Source of the DNA: Rhodococcus sp. SBT000017
GTDB taxonomy: Bacteria > Actinomycetota > Actinomycetes > Mycobacteriales > Mycobacteriaceae
DNA: 64,000 nucleotides
Reading direction: 5' to 3'
NCBI RefSeq assembly: GCF_003688915.1
Contig: NZ_REFU01000001.1
Span: 2,976,001-3,040,000, forward strand
Shown here piece after piece: positions 51,313 to 64,000 of this stretch; position 1 is the first letter of the stretch; every line of letters begins with the position of its first letter. The notes beneath the pieces are model-generated. The model did no database searches. It saw only the letters and a list, made by a program, of their open reading frames with translations, and was not told where the DNA came from. The position numbers and the translations under genes are program-made.

Positions 51313-52542
51313 GTGAATGCCATCAGTCGACCGAACCGAGCTCGACGCGTCGGGGCCGCACTCGCGGCGTCCACCTGCGCGGTGACCGCGCTCGTCGGGT
51401 GCAGTTCCACACCCGAGCCCGAGCCCGCGACCACGCCCGCCGAGACGACGACCGCACCGGCCCCGCAGTACGACCTCACGGGAGTGCCGGGCACCGTTCT
51501 CGATTCCGAGGACTTCGGCGATCGATCGGCAGAGCTCTCCGACACCGGTGCCACGCTGTACCGATTCGTCTACGAGTCCACGTCGGGTGTCGACAATTCC
51601 CCCACGGCGGTCTCAGGAGTAGCAGCCGTTCCGGCAGGCACCCCGCCCGAGGGCGGTTGGCCGATCGTCGTCTACGGGCACGGCACCACCGGAGTGCAGG
51701 CCGATTGCGGACCGACCCTGTACCCCGACCTGCTCGGCTACCAATTCGCTGTGCAGGACTTCACCGAACTCGGATACGTCACCGTGCTGCCCGATTACCA
51801 GGGCCTGGGCACCGGCGGCGGCACCCACCCGTACCTGGAACCGCGCACCTCGGGACACAACATGATCGACGCGGCCCGCGCAGCCCAGAGCGCACTGCCC
51901 GACGTCTCCACGCGCTGGGCCGCTGTCGGCCTGTCGCAAGGTGGCCAAGCCGCCTGGGCTGCAAACGAACTCGCCGCTTCCTACGGTCAGGGCTTGGACC
52001 TGGTGGGATCGGTGTCACTGTCACCGCCGACCGACCTGAAGCCGCTGGTACATGCCGGAATGGACGGAACCCTCACCACACCGCAGAAAGAACTGATGCC
52101 GTCCGTGCTCTACGGCGCACAACAGGTCGATCCCTCGATCGACCCGAAGAACTACAGCGGCAGCGTCGCCGAAGAGAACAACGAGCTCCTGCTCACCTGC
52201 CAGGGTGGAGACGTCGAAGGCAAGGAGCGGGCCGTCGAGGCGATGGCACCGGACGAGTTCGCCGCTGACTCAGCGCAATCGGAGCAACAGCTGCTCGACG
52301 TGATCGATCGCTACACGCTCCCCCAGGTGCGAACCGAGGTGCCCATGTTCGTGGCCTACGGCGCGAAAGACGACATCGTGCTGCCGCAGTGGACCGCCGA
52401 CGGCGTCGAAAAGGCATGCGCCCTGGGCGATTCGGTCGTTGCGCAGGAACAGCCCGAACAGGGCCACGATGTCAGCGACGAGGCGGCCATGCAGTTCCTG
52501 GCTGCCGTGTTCGCAGGCCAATCGGTGCCCAGCACATGCTGA
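51313..52542 (+). CDS. Secretory lipase (LIP family) lipoprotein
   Basis: A 409-aa LIP-family lipase, close to the three in the polysaccharide locus. Signal peptide with lipobox A-L-V-G-C (Cys 30), a Pro/Thr/Glu-rich linker, HGTTG (about residue 120), nucleophile G-L-S-Q-G-G (about 203), Asp in YGAKDD (about 358) and His in EQGHDV (about 386). GTG 51313. The downstream hydrolase begins inside its last codons (7-nt overlap), so the two are co-expressed. Substrate unknown, probably an extracellular ester. Confidence 0.9.
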   Translation: MNAISRPNRARRVGAALAASTCAVTALVGCSSTPEPEPATTPAETTTAPAPQYDLTGVPGTVLDSEDFGDRSAELSDTGATLYRFVYESTSGVDNSPTAVSGVAAVPAGTPPEGGWPIVVYGHGTTGVQADCGPTLYPDLLGYQFAVQDFTELGYVTVLPDYQGLGTGGGTHPYLEPRTSGHNMIDAARAAQSALPDVSTRWAAVGLSQGGQAAWAANELAASYGQGLDLVGSVSLSPPTDLKPLVHAGMDGTLTTPQKELMPSVLYGAQQVDPSIDPKNYSGSVAEENNELLLTCQGGDVEGKERAVEAMAPDEFAADSAQSEQQLLDVIDRYTLPQVRTEVPMFVAYGAKDDIVLPQWTADGVEKACALGDSVVAQEQPEQGHDVSDEAAMQFLAAVFAGQSVPSTC

Positions 52543-53426
52543 CGACCGGCTCTGCGACGAAGAGAATCACCGAGTACATGCGCGACGGTTTCGTGTTCGA
52601 TGTGCTCGACCAGGGACCGCTCGACGGCCCGGTCGTGTTGCTGCTGCACGGATTTCCCGAGCGGGCATCGTCATGGTCTGCGGTGATGGCGATACTCAAC
52701 GATGCCGGGATGCGCACGATCGCCCCGGATCAGCGCGGCTACTCGCCGCGCGCTCGGCCGAAGCGGCGTCGCGACTATCGCGTCGGAGCGTTGGTGGACG
52801 ATGTGGTTGCCTTGATGGCGGTGATCGGAAGACCGGTTCACCTGGTCGGACACGATTGGGGAGCGAACATCGCCTGGGTCACCGCTGGCCGACACCCCCG
52901 ACTCGTTGCGTCGCTGACGGCGTTCTCGGTTCCGCACCCGGGTGCCTTCATGACTGCCCTGCTCACCTCGAAACAGTTCCGACTTTCCTGGTACTTCGCG
53001 TTCTTCCAGCTGCCGATCCTGCCCGAGCGATGGATGACGAGACCGGGCAAGAGGGCCGAGAAGTGGTACGAGAAAAGCGGAATGAGCGAATCCGATCTCG
53101 CCCGAACCGTGGAGGAGGTCGTCGACTACGGGTCCATGCACCACGCGATCACCTGGTACCGCGGACTGCCGTTCTCGAACCCGGGCATCGGCCGTCTGCG
53201 CATCACCGTGCCGACGTCGATGGTGTGGAGCGACGGAGACACGTTCATCGGACGATCCGCCGTCGAGGGTGCGCAACGCTACGTCGATGCCCACTACACA
53301 TTGACGGTGTTACCTGATGTGTCGCACTGGATTCCGACCCAAGCACCGGATGCCGCGGCCGCTGCGATCCTGACCAACGCCGAACTCGCAGTTACGCAGG
53401 GTTTCGGGTCCGATTCGTCTGCATAA
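52536..53426 (+). CDS. Epoxide-hydrolase-like alpha/beta hydrolase
   Basis: A 296-aa alpha/beta-fold hydrolase. HGFPERASSW (oxyanion loop, about residues 38-47), nucleophile elbow G-H-D-W-G-A with Asp (about 108-113) and SHWIPTQAPD with catalytic His (about 265). Asp rather than Ser as nucleophile plus HGFPE points to the epoxide hydrolase/haloalkane dehalogenase branch; the lid should carry Tyr residues (WYRG region). ATG 52536 overlaps the lipase end; an ATG at 52578 is an alternative. Cytoplasmic. Confidence 0.85.
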   Translation: MLTTGSATKRITEYMRDGFVFDVLDQGPLDGPVVLLLHGFPERASSWSAVMAILNDAGMRTIAPDQRGYSPRARPKRRRDYRVGALVDDVVALMAVIGRPVHLVGHDWGANIAWVTAGRHPRLVASLTAFSVPHPGAFMTALLTSKQFRLSWYFAFFQLPILPERWMTRPGKRAEKWYEKSGMSESDLARTVEEVVDYGSMHHAITWYRGLPFSNPGIGRLRITVPTSMVWSDGDTFIGRSAVEGAQRYVDAHYTLTVLPDVSHWIPTQAPDAAAAAILTNAELAVTQGFGSDSSA

Positions 53427-53448
53427 CTGCGAGCTCGTCGGCGCTGGA

Positions 53449-53889
53449 TCAGCTGGTCTGGGTCTCGATGGTTCGCTGCGTGTTGTCGTGGGCGATCTCG
53501 ATCTTGCGCGGCTTGGCACGGGCTGCGAGGGGAATCGTCACCGTCAGCACGCCGTTGTCGTACGACGCCGAAATCTTTTCCGCGTCGACACCGTCACCGA
53601 GCGAGAGCTGGCGGCGATACGTTCCGGCGAATCGCTCCGACGAAAGCCACTGCACGCCATCACTGGTGGGCGCGGTGCGATGCGCGGTCAACGTGAGAGT
53701 GCCACGATCGACGTCGACATCGATCGAGCCCGGATCGACACCGGGCAGATCCGCGTTGAGAACGTAGTGGTCATCGAGTTTGTACAAATCCATCGGCATG
53801 AACCTGGGTGCGCGGTCCGAACCACTGGTCGCGCCGAGCATCCCGGCAGCAATCGAGTCGAGGTCACGGAACGGATCGAAGCGAAGCAC
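53449..53889 (-). CDS. Hsp20/alpha-crystallin small heat-shock protein
   Basis: A 146-aa ATP-independent chaperone. Begins LRFDPFRDLD, then the alpha-crystallin domain (MPMDLYKLDDHYVLNADLPGV to about residue 125) with the conserved DNGVLTVTIP and a short C-terminal tail. GTG 53889 is chosen because AGGAGG (53898-53903) lies 8 nt before it, while the earlier GTG overlaps that ribosome site. A CIRCE element at 53960-53986, 71 nt upstream, shows heat control by HrcA. Confidence 0.92.
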   Translation of the reverse strand: MLRFDPFRDLDSIAAGMLGATSGSDRAPRFMPMDLYKLDDHYVLNADLPGVDPGSIDVDVDRGTLTLTAHRTAPTSDGVQWLSSERFAGTYRRQLSLGDGVDAEKISASYDNGVLTVTIPLAARAKPRKIEIAHDNTQRTIETQTS

Positions 53890-53959
53890 AGCAACCACCT
53901 CCTGTACGACGATGCGTCCGCCCCAGCGGCGGGCCGCCTCTCACTGTGCGAGACCCAAA

Positions 53960-53986
53960 TTAGCACTCTCCACCGGAGAGTGCCAA
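53960..53986. promoter_or_regulatory. CIRCE element (HrcA operator)
   Basis: TTAGCACTC-N9-GAGTGCCAA; the consensus is TTAGCACTC-N9-GAGTGCTAA, so one mismatch. Placed 71 nt before the hsp20 start codon, as expected for HrcA repression. Confidence 0.88.
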
Positions 53987-54000
53987 GAGGGAATTGCTAC

Positions 54001-54060
54001 GCAGTGGTGCGATTGAATGCCGTCCATGGCACTCGACCACACCACTGCCGCAGGCACTTA
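54001..54060. repeat. Palindromic dispersed element, copy 1
   Basis: GCAGTGGTG (54001-54009) pairs with CACCACTGC (54040-54048), with an inner TGCC/GGCA pair. The 32-bp right part (54029-54060) recurs at 55369-55400 with two mismatches. The element ends on the TAA of a short minus-strand frame (54058-54147, 29 aa), just as copy 2 ends on the stop of the HadA/HadB-type gene. Confidence 0.6.
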
Positions 54061-54215
54061 CAGGCGTTCGACGATGGTGGCGTTCGACAGGCCGCCCAGC
54101 GTCACCGACAAGAATGGCTCGGAAGTGAACGAGCTCAGAGTGCGCATCGCGTAGCCGCCGCTATTCGAATCGGAGAAGCGCCCGCACAGCGTGCACGACG
54201 CGTAGCCTGCTGCTC

Positions 54216-54380
54216 ATGGGCGATGATCGGAGTGCTGCAGCGGAGGCCGATCCGCGAGCCAAGTGGCGGAAGCTACCGGGCAGCGTGGAACCAACCCAGG
54301 AGGGCCAGGCGCTGGAGTCGGACGCGTCGCTATGGGACCGCACTCCCAAGTACGATCCGAACACGGGGATAGTCCACTGA
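54216..54380 (+). CDS. Small acidic/polar protein, 54 aa, unknown
   Basis: A 54-aa frame from ATG 54216 to TGA 54378-54380: starts MGDDRSAAAEADPRAKWRKL and ends WDRTPKYDPNTGIVH. The composition is hydrophilic and balanced, with little shadow character, and the gene at 54394 begins 13 nt behind it, so I take it as real. No family recognised; it may be disordered. Confidence 0.5.
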   Translation: MGDDRSAAAEADPRAKWRKLPGSVEPTQEGQALESDASLWDRTPKYDPNTGIVH

Positions 54381-54393
54381 GCGAGTCATCCTG

Positions 54394-54888
54394 ATGCGCT
54401 GGACCGCAATAGTTTTCGGTCTGACCCTGGCCACAGCGTTGTCATTTCTGTGGCACTTCGCCGCGCCCCTTGCGCCCTTCGACCCAGCGGCTATCTCCGG
54501 CGAGTCCGGAAGCATATCGATCCTCGGTTATGCGCAACTGTTCACCGAACAGGGTCCGCCGTGGTTTCCGTCGTCGCTCGTCATCAGCGCGCTGACACTC
54601 TGCACGGTTGCAGCGGCAGCATGGATTCGCAGATCTCGGCAGTCGCTGTTCTGGTGGCCCTTGCCGATTTCGGTGTTTCTGGGAGGTTCCTTGTGGGCCG
54701 CCGCCACCGTCAGTCCTCCGCCGGTCTCCGGCATTGCCTTGGTTCACCCCGACTCGCTGGCCGCGCAGATGTCGGAGTCGCCGCTGTTCAGAGAGTCGAG
54801 TCTCGTATTCTTGACCGAATGCCTGACGGCGTCGATCGTGATCGGTGCCGTGTTCGCCGGCATCCAACACATAGTCGACCGGCGCTGA
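54394..54888 (+). CDS. Small membrane protein, unknown
   Basis: A 164-aa protein with four hydrophobic segments (about residues 5-25, 60-78, 85-103 and 138-156) and an extracytoplasmic loop after the first (PAAISGESGSISILGYAQL). No known family. It follows the 54-aa gene by 13 nt and probably shares its transcript. Confidence 0.62.
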   Translation: MRWTAIVFGLTLATALSFLWHFAAPLAPFDPAAISGESGSISILGYAQLFTEQGPPWFPSSLVISALTLCTVAAAAWIRRSRQSLFWWPLPISVFLGGSLWAAATVSPPPVSGIALVHPDSLAAQMSESPLFRESSLVFLTECLTASIVIGAVFAGIQHIVDRR

Positions 54889-55058
54889 CGCCATCGACGA
54901 ACAGGGCTCCCGCCGGATCGAGATCGCCTGGCATTGTGCGAAGCCCCGCGATGCGGTCAACTGTTTCTTAAGGATCGGCCCAATCAGCAATGGTGTTGCC
55001 GCGCATGCGGGAATCGCGCACGTGCGGCCCGACACCACGCAAAGGAGAAGCGCGTATC

Positions 55059-55136
55059 ATGAACATTTCGGTACGCCAGGTGGTACTCGACTGCACGGAC
55101 GCTCGCCGAGTTCAGCCGACACATTTACGCCCCTAG
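55059..55136 (+). pseudogene. Remnant of VOC/glyoxalase-family gene start
   Basis: Good ribosome site AAGGAG, then ATG 55059 and MNISVRQVVLDCTDARR, which matches the usual opening of glyoxalase-fold proteins (VxLDCxDxxxLAEFY). Reading stops after 25 codons. The expected next residues LAEF appear in the +1 frame directly behind, so a frameshift followed by decay or deletion removed the rest. The gene-poor gap 54889-55397 holds nothing else that looks coding. Confidence 0.4.
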
Positions 55137-55159
55137 CAGCAATCCACACCCCCCCGTAG

Positions 55160-55197
55160 GGGGCGTAGATTCCGAACCGGGGCGTAGATTGCGACCC
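55160..55197. repeat. Two 19-bp tandem iterons GGGGCGTAGATT-NCGA-NCC
   Basis: 55160-55178 and 55179-55197 differ at two positions. A third, inverted and partial copy (GGGGCGTAAAT on the minus strand) lies at 55121-55133. No gene reads from here; function unknown. Confidence 0.6.
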
Positions 55198-55342
55198 CAC
55201 CCACACATCCACTCCCCCACCTGCACATCAGCTCCCCAGATATGGATACCCGACGCCGATCGGAGTCAGAAATCCAAAACCGGGGAGCCGATCCGCGGCG
55301 AAGGCGACCACGCCCACCAACTCGCCAGTCAGCCGGGCATCG

Positions 55343-55400
55343 AGTGGTGTGGTCAAGTGCCGCCCGGGGCACTCAACCACACCACTGCCGCAGGCACTCA
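55343..55400. repeat. Palindromic dispersed element, copy 2
   Basis: A 19-bp near-perfect stem (AGTGGTGTGGT-CA-AGTGCC against GGCACT-CA-ACCACACCACT, 55343-55386) with a 6-nt loop; its right part repeats 54029-54060. It abuts and includes the TGA (55398-55400) of the HadA/HadB-type gene, so it may work as terminator of that gene while being a mobile REP-like unit. Confidence 0.65.
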
Positions 55401-56513
55401 GCCCAATTGCACTGTTGCCGTAGCGCGGTGACCGAAGATTCGCTTGCCCTCGAATGTCGCGCCCAGTGAGATCACTGCAGTACGCGTCGCCTCGTCCTTG
55501 GACTTGATCTTGCCGGTGAAGACGATTTCGGCGGCCTTGTGGGTGTCCACAGGGATCGGGGTGGTGAAGCGGACGGTGTAGTCCTTCACAGCGCCCGGGT
55601 CGCCGAGCCACTCGGTGATGTAACCGCCGCCGACGCCCATCGTGAGCATCCCGTGGGCCAGCACGTTCTCGAGATCGATCAGCTTGGCGAACTGCTCGCT
55701 CCAGTGAATCGGGTTCGCATCGCCTGCCACGCCCGCGTAGTTGACCAGATCACCGCGGGTCAGGCGCACCGTGCGCGACGGCAGTTCGTCTCCGACGTTG
55801 ACGTCGTCGAACTTCTGCGTCGGCCGACCCCGGTACTCCTCGATGATCAGCGGCTCGTGTTCCTGCGGAGTGGACAGTGTGTCGCTCTCGCCGGAATCGG
55901 CACCGCTGACATCTGTCGTCGCGCCGAACATCACCAGATTCTGCGCGGACTCGGAGATGGCCGGATCGATCTCGCCGGACCGACCGACGAGGAGCGTGGT
56001 GTACGTGGTTTGCACCAGCTCGTTCTTCTGATTGGACACGACGTTCTTGGTCACCATCATGTCGCGACCCATGACCGTCTTGAACGAGTCGAGCGAGACA
56101 TCGCATGTCAGTTGGTCGCCGGCGAGGATCGGCTTCTGGAACACCAGCACCTGATCGGTCTGCAGAATCTGGCTCAGGTCGTAGCCCTCGGCGATGGACT
56201 GCAGAAGCTTCCTCTGCGCGAGGGTGCCGACCAGCGACATGAACGTCAGCGGTGCGACGAGGGCGCTGTGACCCAGCGCAGCCGCGGCGTCACCGTCCCA
56301 GTGGGCGGGGTGGAAGTCCTGGACGGCGCGGGCATATTCACGGACCTTTTCGCGGCCCACCTCGTAGTAGTCCTCGGTGCGGTAGTGATAACCGACCATG
56401 CTCCGAGCATGTTCTGCCGGATCGAATGCTTCCCCGTCGGTTGCTGCCGTACCGGACTCCGCTACCTGCTCTGCCACTGTTGTCCCACCGTCTCGTACCC
56501 CACTGTTCACCAT
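55398..56513 (-). CDS. Fused HadA/HadB-type (3R)-hydroxyacyl dehydratase (MaoC family)
   Basis: A 371-aa double hot-dog protein. The N-terminal half matches HadA/FAS1-like dehydratase domains (VGYHYRTEDYYEVGREKVREYARAV, about residues 40-64, seen in parts); the C-terminal half is a MaoC domain with the hydratase motif GDANPIHWSEQFA (Asp/His, about residue 268). In mycobacteria HadA and HadB are separate subunits of the FAS-II dehydratase that makes mycolic acids; a fusion is the form expected in Rhodococcus-type organisms. ATG 56513. The gene end lies in a palindromic repeat. Confidence 0.88.
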   Translation of the reverse strand: MVNSGVRDGGTTVAEQVAESGTAATDGEAFDPAEHARSMVGYHYRTEDYYEVGREKVREYARAVQDFHPAHWDGDAAAALGHSALVAPLTFMSLVGTLAQRKLLQSIAEGYDLSQILQTDQVLVFQKPILAGDQLTCDVSLDSFKTVMGRDMMVTKNVVSNQKNELVQTTYTTLLVGRSGEIDPAISESAQNLVMFGATTDVSGADSGESDTLSTPQEHEPLIIEEYRGRPTQKFDDVNVGDELPSRTVRLTRGDLVNYAGVAGDANPIHWSEQFAKLIDLENVLAHGMLTMGVGGGYITEWLGDPGAVKDYTVRFTTPIPVDTHKAAEIVFTGKIKSKDEATRTAVISLGATFEGKRIFGHRATATVQLG

Positions 56514-56563
56514 TACCCGAGCAACTTACCGAACAACGGCGTTCGTTGGCCAGGCCGGAGGGT

Positions 56564-57532
56564 TCAAGCCGAGCGGTGTCGCGGAGAGTCGTGGTAGCCC
56601 ACCATGCCCACCATCGAGGCGTGTTGCGACGGCGCAACGTTGGCGATCGTGGCACCACGCGGGCGATGTCGACGCGACGCGACCGCGTCGACGGCCATCA
56701 GAGCCGCACCGTGCGCGGTGAGGGACTCCGGATTGGCCGGCGCAACGACCGGCAGCAGCAGATCACGACGAAACAGGCGCCGCAGCGTCGGGATGTTGGC
56801 GCAGCCGCCGACCATCACCAGGGCGTTCACGGCGCAGGGTGCGTCGACGATGACACTGGCCACCCAGTCCTCCAAAGAGCGAATACTGCGCTCGAGGACA
56901 TCGTCGAAGGTATTGCGCCACAACCTGACAGGACCACCGATGAAGGGTCCGGCAACTTCCGCCACCCGCAGTCGAGAAAGCTGCTCGCGTGCCGTGCGGA
57001 CCGACACCGCCAATTCTGCGCGGGCGTGATCGGACGTCAACTCGTCCGCTCCGTACGTCGAGAGCAAGTAGCGGGCGAGCTGCTCGTCGCAGCTGTTGCC
57101 TCCGAACAGCGTGGTGCGCACCGAACTGAAGACCGTACCGCTGGCCGGGTCTGCGACGGACACCGTGGTGCCGGATGCCCCGACGTCACAGACCGCGACG
57201 GTGCGAGCGCCCTCGAGCTGGCCCGTGCCCCACAGATACCGCAGCTGAGCACCGAGTTCGGAAGCGACCAGCAGGCGATCGGCCTCGTAGGTGGAGTAGG
57301 CGGACGTCCGCGCGCGAGCACCGGGATCGTCGGGTACGGCCAACACGATGTCGGTTCGGTCGACCATCTGGTCGCGTGACATGGAGTCCAGCAAGTCGAT
57401 GGCGACCTGCAGGTGGTCGTCAGGATCGAACGAGTGAACGATGTGGGCCGACCGCACCGACTCGTCGATCGCATCGACTGCGACCCCTCGGGCAGTGGCG
57501 GAACCCACCGAAACACCAAGGACTGTTCTCAT
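56564..57532 (-). CDS. Hsp70/actin-like ATPase-fold protein without substrate domain
   Basis: A 322-aa protein with the Hsp70-type ATPase layout but no substrate-binding domain. First phosphate loop VSVGSATARGVAVD (residues about 7-20), second CDVGASGTTVSV (about 146-157), adenosine loop VMVGGCANIPTLRRLF (about 258-273). The usual connect residues are partly changed, so ATP hydrolysis may be weak. No membrane segment; cytoplasmic. ATG 57532. It shares the DVGASGT block with the membrane-anchored relative at 60792-62384 and lies 140 bp from the ANTAR gene in front. Confidence 0.78.
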   Translation of the reverse strand: MRTVLGVSVGSATARGVAVDAIDESVRSAHIVHSFDPDDHLQVAIDLLDSMSRDQMVDRTDIVLAVPDDPGARARTSAYSTYEADRLLVASELGAQLRYLWGTGQLEGARTVAVCDVGASGTTVSVADPASGTVFSSVRTTLFGGNSCDEQLARYLLSTYGADELTSDHARAELAVSVRTAREQLSRLRVAEVAGPFIGGPVRLWRNTFDDVLERSIRSLEDWVASVIVDAPCAVNALVMVGGCANIPTLRRLFRRDLLLPVVAPANPESLTAHGAALMAVDAVASRRHRPRGATIANVAPSQHASMVGMVGYHDSPRHRSA

Positions 57533-57672
57533 GATTCCTCGACTCGACTGGCTACTCCGACCTGCCGATAGTAGCCGCCGAACCGCCGTCTGGACAGCAA
57601 TCTCGGTATTTGAATGAACTTTCGGTTTGTTTTGGGAGATATAACAAGCAGCGAAACTCGTACAGTCCGATC

Positions 57673-57960
57673 TCAGGCGACGTGATCGTAAGGATCTCGA
57701 CGGTCCGCCAGCAGTGGACCCCACTCCTCCTGCGCCGACGACATCGCCGCACAGGCGACACCGTTGGCCGAGTCCATCCCACGCGCGGCCGCGACGATGG
57801 AGCGGGCGGACTGCACGAGCGAGACATCGAAGCGGAAGCTGTGCGCCGCCAATTCGGCGAACGCATCCTCAGGGCTACAGCCACGCAGCGCGATGAGAAC
57901 ACCCACTGCCCTGTCGATGGTCGTGCGGGTCACCGGTTCTGCTGCGGAATGTTCGGTCAT
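57673..57960 (-). CDS. ANTAR-domain RNA-binding protein
   Basis: A 95-aa protein made almost only of an ANTAR domain: IDRAVGVLIALRGCSPEDAFAELAAHSFRFDVSLVQSARSIV (about residues 15-56, seen in parts), with the conserved small residues and Ala/Arg of the three-helix bundle. ANTAR proteins bind paired hexaloop RNA hairpins and stop terminators from forming. No GAF or receiver partner domain is attached, which is unusual: such short ANTAR proteins need another sensor. It lies between two Hsp70-like genes. Confidence 0.82.
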   Translation of the reverse strand: MTEHSAAEPVTRTTIDRAVGVLIALRGCSPEDAFAELAAHSFRFDVSLVQSARSIVAAARGMDSANGVACAAMSSAQEEWGPLLADRRDPYDHVA

Positions 57961-58111
57961 CGAATACTCACCGTCTACTGGTCGATCACTCGATGGTAGC
58001 GACGGGTGAGCAGAAGTTCAGGTGTCCGAGTCGAATTCACATACCCGTCACGCGAAGGACTTGTACAAGTATCAAAACCGCTCGCTCACAATGCAATCAA
58101 CGGATCGAGGG

Positions 58112-59212
58112 CTATTCGACCGGATCTGCCGGCGGTTCTCCAACGGTGGTGGGGTCGGTGGTCTCCGGAACCTCGGTGGTCGGCTCGGCCGGGTCCGTGG
58201 ACGGCACCTCGGTTTCGGGTTCCGGCTCGGGCGGGGGATCGACGGTCGACGTTTCCTCGCCACCCGAGTCGCCACCCGAGTCACCACCCGAGTCGCCACC
58301 CGAGTCGCCACCGCCGGAATCACCGCCGGAATCACCGCCACCGGAGTTGCCCCCGCCGGGTCTGCCGCCACCCGAATCGACGGCACCAGCATCGACGGCA
58401 CCCGAATCGACGCGACCGGAGTTGCCGCCACCCGACGACGCCTCGACGTACGGAGTGGGGACCGAACCCGCAGTGGGTGCTGCACTCCAGGTACCGACCG
58501 GCATCGGCCCGTACGCGGGGACCTCGAGCAACCCGGTGTCGACGGACGGAATCGCCGACGGGTCGGTAGAGGGGACCGCCGAATCGGCGACCACCACCGC
58601 CGAGGACGCGGCTTCGTTGTTTCCGCTCGACGGGACCTCGGCAACATCGGCGGTATCGACCACGGAACTCTGCGTCGGATCGGACGCCGCCAGAGCCCAC
58701 ACGGTGGCTCCGCTCAGTGCCGCGAGAACCGCGACGCCCAACCCGATCATCGTCAGTCTCGCGCTGCGGGGTGTACCGGCCACATCGCTGCCGGAACCAC
58801 TCCGGTCCTCGTCACCCGTCGCATTCGGAACGGCCACCGGCTCGGCGAGGGCGGCCTTGGCTCCGATCAGTGCCGCTGCAATTCCCAATGGAACCGCGGA
58901 GTTCAACCGCGGATCTCCGGCATCCACCACCCCGACGTCGTGAACATCGTGGGCGGCCAGAGCGGCGCAAACGGTCCCGCAGAGCGCGATGCTGTCGCAG
59001 ACCACCCCGGAACCGCTGATCAGCAGGTCGTTCTGGGCCGCCTGCACCCTCATGATTCCGAGCATCGTCGTGACGGCGTCACCGACACCCCCGGGAACCG
59101 AGGAGACGGAGACGGTGCGAGTGGAAATGGGGCCGAGCTCGGGTAGATCGGCCTCGACCAATGCAGCAGATATTTCGTCGTCACCGACGTGCACCCCGAG
59201 CGCAATGGCCAT
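58112..59212 (-). CDS. Single-pass membrane protein with degenerate ATPase-like head and Gly-Ser-Asp tail
   Basis: A 366-aa protein. Residues 1-130 begin MAIALGVHVGDDEISAALVE, which recalls the first loop of the neighbouring Hsp70-like proteins but lacks the rest of the ATPase; it may be a DUF7159-like domain. One membrane helix follows (about 152-172, MIGLGVAVLAALSGATVWAL), then an outer region ending in GGDSGG repeats (about 295-330) and a Pro/Glu/Thr tail. The tail is low complexity, from tandem 9- and 12-bp repeats at about 58260-58340. Same architecture as 60792-62384. Confidence 0.7.
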   Translation of the reverse strand: MAIALGVHVGDDEISAALVEADLPELGPISTRTVSVSSVPGGVGDAVTTMLGIMRVQAAQNDLLISGSGVVCDSIALCGTVCAALAAHDVHDVGVVDAGDPRLNSAVPLGIAAALIGAKAALAEPVAVPNATGDEDRSGSGSDVAGTPRSARLTMIGLGVAVLAALSGATVWALAASDPTQSSVVDTADVAEVPSSGNNEAASSAVVVADSAVPSTDPSAIPSVDTGLLEVPAYGPMPVGTWSAAPTAGSVPTPYVEASSGGGNSGRVDSGAVDAGAVDSGGGRPGGGNSGGGDSGGDSGGGDSGGDSGGDSGGDSGGEETSTVDPPPEPEPETEVPSTDPAEPTTEVPETTDPTTVGEPPADPVE

Positions 59213-59293
59213 GATCGTCGACTCCCCCGAATTCGATTCGGGCTCAGAGTACCCTTCGGGTCTCGAATCGGGGAATCATCCCGGTTTCGCTGA

Positions 59294-60745
59294 TCAGAAC
59301 TCCAACCTGCTCGCCTCGTCCCGGGCTACCTCGGCGGCGCGACACTCGCGCTCGAACAGCAGGCCGAAGGTGAAACCGTTCTCCCCCGCCGTCGTCCCTG
59401 CCCGCGCGCCGAGAGTCCGCAGAATTTCCGCCGCGATCACCGCATCCTGGTGCTCTCCCAGCACCTCCTGAATCGTCTTGTAGTGCTTGATGTTCGCCTT
59501 CGAGACCTTCTTGTCCACCACCGGCGCAACCAACTCGGCCGCATACCGCGCACGTTTCGACGCCTTCCGTGCACGATGCAACGCCTCGTCGTCGGTACCG
59601 CGCACGGCACTCTTCGTGCGATCGATCGCCTTCTTTCCGGCCTTGCGCGCTAGCTTGACCAACACGCGGTCGGTGACCTCGCCGTCGATCGGTAGCCCCC
59701 GCGACCACTCCGACAGCGTCGTGAGCAGCGCGCGGTATCGCTCTCCGTCGAGTTCGGTCATCGCCGCCTCGCGGTATCGGATCTGCTCGGCCAACAGATC
59801 GTTCTCGATGCGCGACGCCACCGGCCCGAGCACCAGTTCGGGCGGCAGTTCGCGCAGCGCTGCCGCGAACCGAGCACGCTGCACCTGACGATCTCGAACC
59901 TCGCCGAGAATGCTTGCATACCAAGATAGTTCGGCCTCGAGTTGGGCAGCCGGCTCGTCCTCGAACAAACTCCCGAATACGCGGAGGGTACTGCGGTAGC
60001 GCCGAATGGCCACCCGCGTGGAGTGAATCGGATCCAGCCCCCGACGCAGATACACATCTCCTGCGACGATCGCCTGCGCCTGATCGTCGAGATAATCCGC
60101 CAGCAGCGCCACGCCGGGTTCGGCAGGCTCCTGGCGCACCACCGACAGCGCCCGATCCAACTTCGACGGATGCGCCGACGGCCGAGCACCGGCGGCGCGC
60201 AACACCTTGCCCGCCTTCTTCAGGAACGACTCCGAGCCTGCGGGGCCGAGTTCCACCTCCACCTCGCGCCACCGCGGACCGGTCGCGCCGCCGATCAAGA
60301 CCACCGACACCTCGTCGTCGGCGATTTCCGCGACGACAGCCCCATCGGCGTCGGACACGGTGTGAATCGTTCGACGCGTCGTGAGCGTCGCGACCGCGGC
60401 CAACTCCGCGCCCATCACCGCACCGCGCAGCACATCGTTGAGCTCGTCCGGCACCGCGTTGTGCGCACCGCTGCCGAGAGGGAGCCGAATCTCGGTCCGC
60501 GCCTTCTCTGCCGGGACCTTCGCATGCCAGCCGTTGTCGGAATCACCGGTACGACGCCGGACGGTGATCCCGCGTCGCAACAGGTCGTGGCCGGCAGTGT
60601 CGAAGTACTCACTGCTCAGGTCGGTCTCGCTCGACACCAGTGCGCCGCCGGTGGGTACCAGCGAAGCGAGAGTGGGCAACTGAAAATCTGCGTCGACGTC
60701 GAACTTGTCTTCGCGCTCGGTCTGAATCGACTCCATACTGCTCAT
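59294..60745 (-). CDS. CYTH-CHAD domain protein
   Basis: A 483-aa two-domain protein. CYTH at residues about 8-200, with the EREDK (ExExK) motif near residue 11 and the basic/acidic ladder of a triphosphate tunnel; CHAD at about 220-475 with HSTRVAIRRYRSTLRVF and HRARKASKRARYAAEL, the His/Arg-rich helices that bind inorganic polyphosphate. Such fusions act on, or store near, polyphosphate or triphosphate substrates. ATG 60745 (or 60736) is chosen over the longer Arg/Pro-rich frame. It lies in line between two Hsp70-like membrane proteins. Confidence 0.85.
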   Translation of the reverse strand: MSSMESIQTEREDKFDVDADFQLPTLASLVPTGGALVSSETDLSSEYFDTAGHDLLRRGITVRRRTGDSDNGWHAKVPAEKARTEIRLPLGSGAHNAVPDELNDVLRGAVMGAELAAVATLTTRRTIHTVSDADGAVVAEIADDEVSVVLIGGATGPRWREVEVELGPAGSESFLKKAGKVLRAAGARPSAHPSKLDRALSVVRQEPAEPGVALLADYLDDQAQAIVAGDVYLRRGLDPIHSTRVAIRRYRSTLRVFGSLFEDEPAAQLEAELSWYASILGEVRDRQVQRARFAAALRELPPELVLGPVASRIENDLLAEQIRYREAAMTELDGERYRALLTTLSEWSRGLPIDGEVTDRVLVKLARKAGKKAIDRTKSAVRGTDDEALHRARKASKRARYAAELVAPVVDKKVSKANIKHYKTIQEVLGEHQDAVIAAEILRTLGARAGTTAGENGFTFGLLFERECRAAEVARDEASRLEF

Positions 60746-60791
60746 CCTGCCTCGAGTGCCCGGGCCGGTGACGGCGGAAAGCGCAGACCGG

Positions 60792-62384
60792 TCAGCGTCG
60801 CGGAAAGTCGAAATCCGGCAACGGAAAATCGAACGTCCGGGTCGACCGCGTGGTGGTCGTCGGCGTCGTGGTCCGGGTGGTCGTGGTGGGACGCGTTGTG
60901 GTCGGACGAGTCGTGGCGGCGGGTGGGACCGTCGTCTGCACCACGGTCGACGAATCGACGGTGGGCCTGCTCGGTGCCGTCGTCTGCTCGATGACGGACG
61001 GGGCACCGGTCGTGGTGACGACGCGCCGTGTGGCGGTGGCGCTTTCGGCGACCGTCGTGGCCGGTGCCGGGGACGAGGACGACGTTGTCGGCGCGCCGAC
61101 CGGAGACGAGGTCGGCGTCGCCGTCGTGGTCGCGAACGGCACCGAGGGCCCGGCGGGTTCGGCGGGTTCGGCGGCTGACCCGTCCGCCGCAGGCACCACG
61201 GACTGCGACCGGGCGGGTTGCGAGGAGTCCTGCGACGTGGTCACCGACGTCGCTGGATCTTCGCCGCTGGTCCGTGCCGCCGCAGTGACCACGGTGCCGG
61301 CTGCACATACCGCGACGAGTGCCGCGAGCGCGCCGCCGAGATGCCGAGCCTTGTTGGCCCTGGTCATCCGCTTGAAGGAGGTGTCGCTGTGCCGGGGACG
61401 CTTGGAGACCACCGCGGCCACCTCGAGGTCTGCGGAATCCCGGTCCACGGCAGCGAATCGATCGGTGAGCACCTCAGGTGCCGCCGGCGCAGGCCGCAGA
61501 CCCACCGTCCGAACGATCCCGGCAGCGCCGTAAGCCGCCAGCAGTTCCGGCTGCTCGGGCACGTAGACCGGCACCGCCACCGCGTCGAACAGGACCTGGC
61601 GAACTATCTGCATGTTGGCACCGCCGCCGACGGCGACGACGGCGTCGACGCGAACGCCCTGCGCGCTGACCGCATCGAGGACGTCGACGGCCATCGAAAC
61701 GGCTCGGTGCACGGCGTCGCCGATGACCTCGTCGAGATTGCCACGCCACAGCGACGCTCGTCCGCCGACGAACGGCCCGATGATCGACACGCTGCGAAGC
61801 AGGGCCAGCTCGTGTTTGCCGTCGCGGACGTCGTGCACGAGCCGCCTGCGAGCCTCGATCGTCGGCGCCTCGGCCGCACCGAATGTCGCGATGAGGTGAT
61901 CGCACAGCATTCGATCGCACTCATCGCCGCTGAGCGCGTCGGTTCGACGCGACGCGAGAACGTCACCGCTGTCGATGTCGACGACGGAGACCGAGGTACC
62001 GGATGCGCCGACGTCGAACAGGGCGACGCAGCGTTCGCCTGCCAGCACACGTGTCTCACGCAGTGCACCCAACTGGGCGCCGAGTTCGGATACGAGGACG
62101 ACACCGTCTGAGAAGTCCTGGTCGTAAGCCGTTCGGGGGTCGCTCTCGCGCAATGCGAGCACCGGATAGAAATCCGCCGACGCATACTCCGTCGCCAGAT
62201 TGTGTACCGAGGTGACGACGGCATCCCACGGATCGGGGGCGAGGCCGTTGGGTGCGGGCCGAGACGCGACGGGCTCGTGCACTTCCAGAACGGCACCGGA
62301 GCGCGAGTCGGCACTGATCACGCTGCGGAGACCACTCGACCCCAAAGAAGCGCCGAGGACGGACACATCGTGAACCGCGGACAC
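60792..62384 (-). CDS. Hsp70/actin-like membrane protein with Thr/Ser/Pro-rich outer tail
   Basis: A 530-aa protein: an Hsp70-like ATPase half (about residues 1-300: loop 2 FDVGASGTSVSVVD near 125, adenosine loop VAVGGGANMQIVRQVLF near 275), a cytoplasmic linker, one membrane helix (about 350-370, LGGALAALVAVCAAGTVVTA), then a 160-residue Thr/Ser/Ala/Pro-rich tail ending in PLPDFDFPRR. GTG 62384 has GAGG 6 nt upstream and a better start than codon 62426. The tail is probably wall-exposed, perhaps O-glycosylated (inference). Paralogue of 56564-57532. Confidence 0.78.
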   Translation of the reverse strand: MSAVHDVSVLGASLGSSGLRSVISADSRSGAVLEVHEPVASRPAPNGLAPDPWDAVVTSVHNLATEYASADFYPVLALRESDPRTAYDQDFSDGVVLVSELGAQLGALRETRVLAGERCVALFDVGASGTSVSVVDIDSGDVLASRRTDALSGDECDRMLCDHLIATFGAAEAPTIEARRRLVHDVRDGKHELALLRSVSIIGPFVGGRASLWRGNLDEVIGDAVHRAVSMAVDVLDAVSAQGVRVDAVVAVGGGANMQIVRQVLFDAVAVPVYVPEQPELLAAYGAAGIVRTVGLRPAPAAPEVLTDRFAAVDRDSADLEVAAVVSKRPRHSDTSFKRMTRANKARHLGGALAALVAVCAAGTVVTAAARTSGEDPATSVTTSQDSSQPARSQSVVPAADGSAAEPAEPAGPSVPFATTTATPTSSPVGAPTTSSSSPAPATTVAESATATRRVVTTTGAPSVIEQTTAPSRPTVDSSTVVQTTVPPAATTRPTTTRPTTTTRTTTPTTTTRSTRTFDFPLPDFDFPRR

Positions 62385-62489
62385 TAGAAACCTCGCTCTG
62401 GTAGGCCCCAACCCACGTGAGGTCACCAGAGTACCGCTACAACCGGTCGTTCGTCATGTTTTACGGCTGGCAAACAAACTGCGAGATCG

Positions 62490-63068
62490 TTACTCGACGC
62501 TCGACCGGACGAAATTCAGGTAGGCCTTCGACGGCGTCGGCCCGCGCTGACCCTGATACTTCGACCCCACCGCGGCACTGCCGTACGGATTCTCGGACGG
62601 CGACGACAGCCGGAACAGACACAGTTGCCCGATCTTCATGCCCGGCCACAACGTGATCGGCAGGTTGGCGACGTTGGACAACTCCAACGTGATGTGGCCG
62701 CTGAAGCCCGGATCGATGAAACCTGCAGTCGAGTGCGTGAGCAGACCCAGCCGCCCGAGCGAGCTCTTTCCCTCGAGCCGACCGGCCAGGTAGTCCGGCA
62801 GCGTCGTCAATTCGAGAGTGGAGCCGAGAACGAATTCGCCCGGATGAAGAACGAACGGCTCGCCGGCCGCAGGTTCGACCAACGTCGTCAACTCGTCCTG
62901 CTGCAGCGACGGGTCGATGTGGGTGTAGCGAGTGTTGTTGAACACCCGAAACAGCTTGTCGAGCCGCACATCGACACTCGACGGCTGAACCATCGACGGG
63001 TCGAACGGTTCGATCGCCAGGTTTCCCAGGGTCACTTCGGCACGGATGTCACGGTCGGAGAGCAGCAC
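62490..63068 (-). CDS. dcd: dCTP deaminase, probably bifunctional (dUMP-forming)
   Basis: A 192-aa all-beta deaminase of pyrimidine nucleotide synthesis. The N-terminus [12 protein letters not shown], the PSSVDVRLD block (about residue 30), [11 protein letters not shown] (about 100) and the [20 protein letters not shown] block (about 112-131; catalytic Glu) are all present, with [11 protein letters not shown] at the end. Actinobacterial Dcd converts dCTP straight to dUMP, so the same is likely here. It is divergent from the gene at 63209. Confidence 0.95.
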
Positions 63069-63208
63069 CTCTGCAGGCTACTGGTCCTGGGCGGTCCCCC
63101 GCGACACACCCGAGTCCCGATCGCGGCGCATAGCTCTGCAAAGGAAAAGCCGGACAATCGAGCGGCACGACCATTCACATTCGGCAAACTCCTGTCAGGA
63201 AGACTGAA

Positions 63209-63922
63209 ATGACAATTCCGTTCGACGTCCCCTCGTACTGGGATCAGCGATCCCAATGCCTCGTTCTGGCCACCACTCCCACAGAAAACCCGGGGTTGTG
63301 GAAACAATTCCTCGACGGCGCAGAGGAAAGCTATATGAGACACGGTGTCACCACCGCTCTCGAAATATCGGCCATTCGTGACGGCAGCACCACGGCGCTG
63401 TTCTTCGCCGCACTCGACCGAACCGGACAAATAGTCGGCGGAGTACGGGTGCAAGGACCGTATTCCTCGGTCGATCAATCGCACGCACTGATCGAATTCG
63501 CCGACCATCCGGAAGGCCTACGGCACGTGCACACCATGCTCGACGAACGCATCGACCACGGAGTCGTCGAACTCAAGTCCGCGTGGGTCGCTCAGCACGC
63601 ACCCCACGGCCGAGCCGTCACCGCGATGATCGCAGAATCACCCGCCTACAGCACGGCACTTCTCGGCGCGCGCTACGCCCTTGCCACCGCGGCCTCCCAC
63701 GTCCGCACCGCATGGCTCGACACCGGTGCCGTCATCGCCACCCAGATCGAGCCGATCCCCTACCCTGACGATCGCTATCGAACCGAGGTGTTCTGGTGGG
63801 ACAGAACAACACTCGCATTCAACGCCGACCTGGCCACCTGGCGCCGGATGCGGCACAACACGGTCACCCTGCTGGCACACCGCCGCGCAGCCGTCGAACT
63901 CCCGGAAGCAGTCGCATCATGA
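63209..63922 (+). CDS. Unknown protein, possibly GNAT-fold
   Basis: A 237-aa soluble protein with alternating strands and helices (TALFFAALDRTGQIVGGVRVQG, VVELKSAWVAQHAPHGRAVTAMIA, then a C-terminal stretch with PIPYPDDRYRTEVFWWDR). The first segment looks like the central strands of a GNAT-type acyltransferase or N-acyl amino-acid synthase, but no acetyl-CoA loop is clear. AGGA lies before the ATG. Its stop overlaps the next gene (ATGA), so the two are an operon divergent from dcd. Not recognised with confidence. Confidence 0.7.
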   Translation: MTIPFDVPSYWDQRSQCLVLATTPTENPGLWKQFLDGAEESYMRHGVTTALEISAIRDGSTTALFFAALDRTGQIVGGVRVQGPYSSVDQSHALIEFADHPEGLRHVHTMLDERIDHGVVELKSAWVAQHAPHGRAVTAMIAESPAYSTALLGARYALATAASHVRTAWLDTGAVIATQIEPIPYPDDRYRTEVFWWDRTTLAFNADLATWRRMRHNTVTLLAHRRAAVELPEAVAS

Positions 63923-64000
63923 ACGATCGAACCACACCCGGCCACCACTGGAAGCCTGTGATATTCGACGAGACGGACGCCACACAGCGCGACGCACTCG
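63919..64000 (+). CDS. Start of next gene, cut by window end
   Basis: The ATG at 63919 overlaps the stop of the previous gene by 4 nt and opens MNDRTTPGHHWKPVIFDE and on for 27 codons to the window edge. Too short to assign; the overlap makes a real, co-translated gene likely. Confidence 0.6.
   Translation, partial: MNDRTTPGHHWKPVIFDETDATQRDAL

Follow-up and report, generated by a model that had tools for sequence, protein, structure and literature searches.

A dcd-linked trio of genes with predicted Hsp70/actin-fold heads in Rhodococcus, one of them one-lobed

Introduction

What is a set of Hsp70-like genes, some with a membrane helix and a low-complexity tail, doing beside dcd, the gene for dCTP deaminase? 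The question is raised by a stretch of 64,000 nucleotides from Rhodococcus sp. SBT000017, here called the window (contig NZ_REFU01000001.1; G000:C1:2976001-3040000, within a 5.65 Mb genome). The nearest named relatives found are Rhodococcus sp. 14-2483-1-2, Rhodococcus sp. 06-235-1A and Rhodococcoides fascians A44A. Three genes downstream of dcd, here called H5, DEG and H1, encode proteins whose heads are assigned to the Hsp70/actin (ASKHA) fold by profiles and a model, and the trio is kept beside dcd in diverged genomes. We read H5, DEG and H1, tentatively and with belief and doubt close to balance, as a single functional unit, namely a membrane scaffold that binds ATP and is not a chaperone.

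The organisation of wall growth in the polar-growing Mycobacteriales without MreB and FtsA is an unsettled question on which the trio bears, as a candidate internal scaffold for cells said to be without the usual bacterial actins. The three genes also offer a small set, open to deletion, from which to approach a large family of Hsp70-like proteins with tails, several of them encoded in this genome.

A sequence-only reading of this DNA had proposed a five-gene system, possibly linked to polyphosphate, made up of Hsp70-like, ANTAR and CYTH-CHAD proteins. Its observation is partly confirmed and its interpretation partly supported. The set of genes on one strand and the descriptions of the five proteins are right by minus-strand coordinates, Pfam and composition, and the Hsp70-like genes do belong together, as H5-DEG-H1 beside dcd. 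The edges of the set were placed wrongly, and CHAD and ANTAR are not part of the core. The dcd-linked trio with its one-lobed member is a better finding than the polyphosphate system.

Conservation of the trio beside dcd

All features described here are on the minus strand, where the order of transcription is dcd, H5, CYTH-CHAD, DEG, ANTAR, H1 and a fused HadA-HadB gene. The dCTP deaminase gene (62490..63068; TIGR02274, 5.7e-63) adjoins the module in all 37 genomes of the genus sample, seven of which (including G002, G005, G015, G016 and G100) are diverged and are treated apart. H5 (60792..62384, GTG start) is a membrane-anchored Hsp70-like protein, DEG (58112..59212) has a one-lobed head followed by one helix and a Gly/Ser/Asp-rich tail, and H1 (56564..57532) is a soluble Hsp70-like head that lacks a substrate domain, a helix and a tail.

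Across the 37 genus genomes, dcd and DEG are present in the block in 37, H1 in 36, H5 in 31, CHAD in 30 and ANTAR in 22. The only genome lacking H1 is G018, in which the contig ends after DEG. The most common arrangement is dcd-H5-CHAD-DEG-ANTAR-H1-MaoC (21 genomes), followed by dcd-H5-DEG-H1 (7), dcd-CHAD-DEG-H1-MaoC (5), dcd-H5-CHAD-DEG-H1-MaoC (2), dcd-CHAD-DEG-ANTAR-H1-MaoC (1) and dcd-H5-CHAD-DEG up to a contig end (1). Retention of all or part of the order in 37 of 37 genomes far exceeds chance, and the core over these genomes is dcd, H5, DEG and H1. The trio is also present in G057, a genome of another genus, as dcd-H5-DEG-H1 with a further Hsp70-like gene upstream of dcd. At its upstream end dcd is overlapped by this fourth head-helix-tail frame (L082:12975-14774), so that dcd has four such genes around it. 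The check proposed by the sequence-only reading, whether the order is kept in other genomes, thus comes out positive within this group, and its first ground for refutation, scattering in relatives, fails there, because the order of the trio is kept in the diverged genomes and in G057.

As a control for the neighbourhood, the 61 called genes of the window were compared by tblastn with 19.5 kb around the trio in G057 and in each of the seven diverged genomes of the genus. Matches were found for dcd (8/8), H1 (8/8), DEG (6/8) and H5 in its own place (3/8), and the DEG and H5 copies missed by tblastn were recovered by profile. The other matches were a homologue of the window gene at 63209-63922 in G016, about 6 kb from dcd (37%, E-value 8.6e-49), Hsp20 in G015 (70%) and distant paralogues at 24–37%. 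This control mainly tests the downstream side, because the window has one gene upstream of dcd and ends 932 bases upstream of it. In these eight genomes the order of the trio survives beside dcd where most of the surroundings are lost. Gene starts in the fetched loci are longest-frame calls and the intergenic gaps are therefore approximate; the gap between H5 and DEG is 35–43 bases in five diverged genus genomes (G002, G005, G015, G100 and G016) and about 140 in G057.

A draw from the family of 121 genomes in 31 genera was searched with thresholds of E below 1e-55 for H1-grade matches and E below 1e-9 for DEG. The same 9 genomes have both, with the genes adjacent in 9/9; eight were drawn from this genus and the ninth is G057, the remaining 112 having neither at these levels among the candidates scored. 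Weak DEG-like matches, from 3e-9 to 6e-5, occur in nine further family genomes, and in G109 and G051 they correspond to the N-terminal part of a full head. Counts outside the genus are lower bounds, since for many family genomes only 18 (H1 profile) or 29 (DEG profile) of the candidates were scored. An order-wide search, with 11 candidates scored per genome listed, found at least 3 positive genomes among 298, all of this genus, and missed the weak match in G051.

In a tree of 52 heads, all H1 and H5 of the trio fall into a single clade (100/99), which excludes the 20 paralogues. Within it, with midpoint rooting, H1 (94/85) and H5 (88/73) form subclades, neither of which is starred, and the diverged genomes branch in identical order in both. 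One duplication followed by joint retention is the simplest account of H1 and H5.

The heads of H1 and H5

H1 and H5 match the Pfam HSP70 profile (PF00012; 41.3 and 39.9 bits) over positions 183–391 and 184–369 of 599 only, which is lobe II. Because the matches stop at 391 and 369, both are without a substrate-binding domain. Compared with solved Hsp70s, profile position 32 of H1 aligns with chain position 121 of 5tky_A, and profile position 105 of H5 with position 185 of 1dkg_D. Both heads are therefore some 80–90 residues short ahead of lobe II, which leaves no space for subdomain IB. The alignments have 15 rows for H1 (the window and 14 of 24), 15 for DEG (the window and 14 of 24) and 13 for H5 (the window and 12 of 21). 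The H5 head, at about residues 1–295 (61500..62384), is delimited by profile matches to solved Hsp70s.

The motif names used here (phosphate-1, phosphate-2, adenosine) and their roles in DnaK are those that we take to apply. The phosphate-2 Asp is present in 52/52 aligned heads and the adenosine Gly-Gly in 51/52. The phosphate-1 motif of Hsp70 is GIDLGTT, and its Asp is found in none of the 48 heads that are readable at this position; four of the 52 rows are gapped or cut there, including that of the window H5, which reads LGASLGSSG. The Glu of SELGAQL is present in 16/16 H1, and the loop DVGASGT, seen by the sequence-only reading in two proteins, is in H1 and H5. With the phosphate-2 Asp and the Gly-Gly retained but neither the phosphate-1 Asp nor subdomain IB, these heads may bind ATP and hydrolyse it slowly or not at all. 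By motif, the H1 and H5 heads are not chaperones. A hydrophobic stretch in some H1, at about residue 224, is by its position the strand before the adenosine motif and not a membrane helix.

The one-lobed head of DEG

DEG has no Pfam match, and for the copies of the window, G002, G016 and G057 this holds up to E 1, with DUF7159 included. The AlphaFold2 model of its head (residues 1–125, 58838..59212) has a predicted local distance difference test (pLDDT) score of 81.5 and a predicted template modelling score of 0.74. The modelled topology, b1b2b3-a1-b4-a2-b5-a3, is that of an ASKHA first lobe. There is no second lobe, the head being modelled to residue 125 and the helix starting at 153. The fold matches of the model include ROK repressors, which sense sugars without catalysis.

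A DEG profile built from 17 sequences aligns by hhalign with the 20 paralogue heads at a probability of 96.9 (E 1.5e-10), against 1.0 for the reversed control, and with all 52 heads at 92.5. The narrow DEG alignment showed no significant homology to those of H1 and H5, and a sequence search of solved structures with the DEG profile gave no meaningful match. By model and profiles, the head of DEG is a lone first lobe of the Hsp70/actin fold; it is under purifying selection.

Membrane topology and selection

H5 has a single helix at residues 352–370 (61275..61331) by hydropathy and charge bias. In 26 of 27 sequences the flank on the side of the head is the more positive, or the less negative, of the two; the remaining sequence has no helix. 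DEG likewise has one helix, at residues 153–171 (58700..58756), with the same bias in 26 of 30 sequences. The tails that follow are, in the window, Thr/Pro/Ser-rich in H5 (60795..61274) and of low complexity in DEG (58115..58699); over the sets they are T/P/S/A-rich and P/T/G/A/S-rich, respectively. In both proteins the head is predicted to be inside and the unstructured tail outside. The two proteins with head, one helix and low-complexity tail that the sequence-only reading described are H5 and DEG.

All three heads are under purifying selection, as judged from the ratio of nonsynonymous to synonymous substitution rates (dN/dS). This is 0.07–0.09 for the H1 head, 0.11–0.19 in three comparisons for the H5 head and 0.15–0.47 for the DEG head. 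The tails evolve faster than the heads, with dN/dS of 0.42–0.54 in H5 and 0.36–1.02 in DEG.

Related heads in this and other genomes

There are ten HSP70 matches in the genome of the window, among them two parts of DnaK, H1, H5 and one at 2757408. Beyond H1 and H5 seven heads were read; in six of them a helix is predicted to follow the head, and five of these six have a clearly low-complexity tail. The seventh (L097:9358-10182, on the 102 kb contig C3) is a second soluble, tail-less head of 274 residues, which in the tree groups with heads of G060, G109 and G051. Two of those with a helix are in tandem at about 2784 kb (L096:7523-9448 and L096:9597-11105); one of them is very diverged, and they adjoin what appear by eye to be acyl-carrier and acyl-CoA dehydrogenase genes.

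Tailed heads were read in six other genera, directly after dcd in G092 and two genes after it in G044. Single head-helix-tail proteins are widespread; the trio was seen in two genera. In G254, of genus g29, which by gene content is probably Mycobacterium, an HSP70 head with a helix and a Thr-rich tail is located about 4 kb from dcd (locus L133). It covers profile positions 117–378, more than H1 or H5, and has neither H1 nor DEG beside it. Two DUF7159 proteins are found around dcd in the same genome (L133:6915-8084 and L133:953-2629). DUF7159 (PF23717) aligns by hhalign with the 20 paralogue heads at a probability of 99.1 (E 8.9e-19; reversed control 0.2) and with residues 1–97 of DEG at 80.8 (E 1.3e-5). 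DUF7159 thus looks like an ASKHA family that is not labelled as such in Pfam, which places it in the same fold family as the trio heads.

By its description the tailed protein of L133 may be Rv0312. The sequence-only reading held that tailed Hsp70-type heads are without a described role, and this needs qualification. In excerpts of PMC11898655, the interactome of the polar growth protein FhaA includes MSMEG_0692/Rv0312, which is Pro/Thr-rich, has one helix and is annotated as ATP-binding; it was seen only in FhaA pull-downs after cross-linking. In the open-licence literature no paper was found on the module or its relatives, no functional study of the tailed Hsp70-like family, and no description of a capping or orienting role for a half-ASKHA protein.

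Interpretation

The scaffold reading is supported directly by the common fold, the predicted topology, the linkage beside dcd and the selection on the heads. It also agrees with the lack of an MreB proper in this genome by profile, and with the presence of a protein of the tailed description, MSMEG_0692/Rv0312, among the partners of FhaA. From the direct support we infer contacts, assembly, location and a role for the trio. Soluble H1 would bind ATP between its two lobes and assemble with membrane-bound H5 heads. The one-lobed DEG head could dock on an open lobe of H1 or H5 and so cap or orient the assembly. Such a cluster would collect the outer tails at one wall site, most likely the growth zone, and the switch would be ATP binding rather than fast hydrolysis.

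Several observations weigh against this. H5 is missing from the block in 6/37 genus genomes and is therefore not strictly needed, and its active-site Glu varies. In three genomes H5 is shortened to 358–389 residues (L051 in G010, L057 in G008 and L064 in G028), the copy in L057 keeping no helix; these frames may reflect decay or sequence errors. Predicting structures for the heads, as the sequence-only reading had suggested, gave a first lobe for DEG and for H1 a low-quality model from four sequences with a pLDDT of 38. Run against just the trio heads, the DEG profile has an hhalign probability of 2.8, against H1 alone 10.5 and against H5 alone 0.8, none of which is significant. G057 joins the seven diverged genomes in the H1 subclade and again in the H5 subclade instead of branching outside the genus, for which a long-branch effect or a transfer may be responsible. 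The conserved boxes described below suggest that in this lineage the genes may be transcribed from separate promoters. Rv0312 fits the tailed-head family by its published description only. Lastly, binding within the trio, polymers, ATP binding and a polar location are all matters that we infer.

The closest competitor is a relay that senses the wall, which we consider unlikely. The tails of H5 and DEG would sense the wall or the mycolate layer, and the heads would be nucleotide-dependent docking switches that recruit H1 and regulators, with no polymer or scaffold. The head inside and low-complexity tail outside in both proteins, and the faster evolution of the tails, suit such a relay, as do the ROK repressors among the DEG fold matches and the co-purification with FhaA of a mycobacterial protein of the tailed description (excerpts of PMC11898655). 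However, the conserved core includes no kinase, sigma factor or transcription factor, and ANTAR belongs to the block in just 22/37 genomes.

Somewhat less probable still is that the genes are tandem paralogues without a joint function, the product of an old local duplication beside dcd, kept together by inertia. H1 and H5 are indeed sister groups, the wider family includes many single copies at scattered sites, and other tailed heads are near dcd in other genera, because of which the site beside dcd may be one that attracts or holds such genes. Yet the order is retained while most of the neighbourhood is lost, the same 9/121 genomes carry both H1 and DEG, and all heads are under purifying selection.

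The scaffold reading can be taken further, to an actin-like membrane scaffold that partly stands in for MreB and FtsA in bacteria with polar growth and mycolic acids that have neither. H1 would be its soluble subunit, H5 the anchored one and DEG the one-lobed capping or orienting one, with DUF7159 and the other tailed heads as branches in other genera. This extension is doubtful. The trio was seen in only 2 of the 31 genera drawn from the family, and it is therefore no general replacement for MreB and FtsA.

That the three are a membrane-bound Hsp70 chaperone set, a holdase or foldase for exported envelope proteins, is very improbable. Among Pfam families H1 and H5 do match HSP70 best, but they lack the substrate-binding domain and subdomain IB, and 0/48 readable heads have the phosphate-1 Asp; an Hsp70 chaperone identity is rejected on these absences.

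Lineage-specific genes and promoters

The CYTH-CHAD gene (59294..60739) and the ANTAR-only gene (57673..57960) are lineage-specific, non-core members of the block. Both domains of the former pass their cut-offs (PF05235, CHAD, 167.3 against 25.6 bits; PF01928, CYTH, 34.7 against 23.2), as does ANTAR (PF03861, 42.5 against 27.3). Both are lacking in the block of G057 and of the seven diverged members of the genus. They may tune the trio; they are not needed for its persistence.

Least probable of all is a polyphosphate or triphosphate system centred on CYTH-CHAD with the Hsp70-like proteins as effectors, as the sequence-only reading proposed: CHAD domains bind polyphosphate (excerpts of PMC6537752) and CHAD is at the same site in 30/37 genomes, but a polyphosphate core is rejected because in G057 and seven genomes of the genus the trio persists with no CHAD in the block, CHAD being sited elsewhere and 36–38% identical in the five of the seven diverged genomes in which it was measured.

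The block-presence counts for ANTAR (22/37, with none in the diverged genomes or G057) also tell against an RNA-level switch as the core. The target of ANTAR proteins is a double-hairpin RNA motif. On the coding strand of 55300-63260 one simple pattern for it gave 0 hits, with 0.3 expected at random, and Rfam at its gathering score gave no match in 52000-64000. Within these stretches neither search lends support to an RNA switch.

Four conserved TAC-type -10-like boxes end 32–43 bases ahead of start codons. TACTCT is found before H5 (62428..62433; identical in 11 of 12 aligned rows, TATTCT in one) and before DEG (59246..59251; identical in 10 of 12, TAC in 12/12), TACCAT before ANTAR (57993..57998; 11 of 12, TACGAT in one) and TACTAT before H1 (57568..57573; 11 of 12, TACGAT in one). 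The boxes of H5 and DEG have GTACTCTG in common. A sigma-70 consensus scan detected none of the four. Because each has a conserved box, H5, DEG, ANTAR and H1 are possibly separate units in this lineage, while only 35–43 bases separate H5 from DEG in the five diverged genus genomes named above. Transcription from separate, unrelated promoters was the second ground on which the sequence-only reading said that its system idea would fail.

The neighbour downstream of H1 is the fused HadA-HadB (3R)-hydroxyacyl-ACP dehydratase gene (55398..56513; NCBIfam NF040620, 485.7 bits). It follows H1 in 29/37 genus genomes; the seven diverged genomes do not have it there, and the contig of G018 stops short of it. 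The sequence-only reading mentioned neither this gene, with which its interval starts, nor dcd just upstream.

Comparison with known systems

H1 and H5 resemble Hsp70/DnaK in lobe II of the nucleotide-binding domain and in the phosphate-2 and adenosine motifs, and differ from it in having no substrate domain, no IB and no phosphate-1 Asp. H1 resembles the actin-like proteins MreB, FtsA and PilM in having a head without IB. Its Pfam score for MreB (PF06723) is 33.0 bits against a cut-off of 27. With the MreB profile in the whole genome, DnaK has 66.9 bits, H1 32.7, H5 23.6 and one paralogue 21.1. This score does not discriminate, because DnaK outscores H1. No MreB proper was found in this genome with the profile, and FtsA was not searched for. 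H1 also has a sub-threshold match to PilM (22.6 against 27 bits).

DUF7159 proteins are like the members of the trio in their homologous head, their head-helix-tail order and their position near dcd in g29. Unlike DEG, which is one-lobed and has no Pfam match to DUF7159, the family has about 220 residues, aligned across both lobes. By description, in excerpts of PMC11898655, Rv0312/MSMEG_0692 is like H5 in having one helix, a Pro/Thr-rich composition and an ATP-binding annotation.

According to excerpts of PMC10522489, the Corynebacteriales are reported to be without MreB, and the Actinobacteria without several FtsZ regulators including FtsA. The Glp-GlpR pair of Corynebacterium links division and polar elongation in bacteria from which FtsA and MreB are reportedly missing (PMC10522489). 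Glp-GlpR is unlike the trio in being gephyrin-like and not ASKHA, and is like it in combining a soluble protein of enzyme-like fold with a membrane partner.

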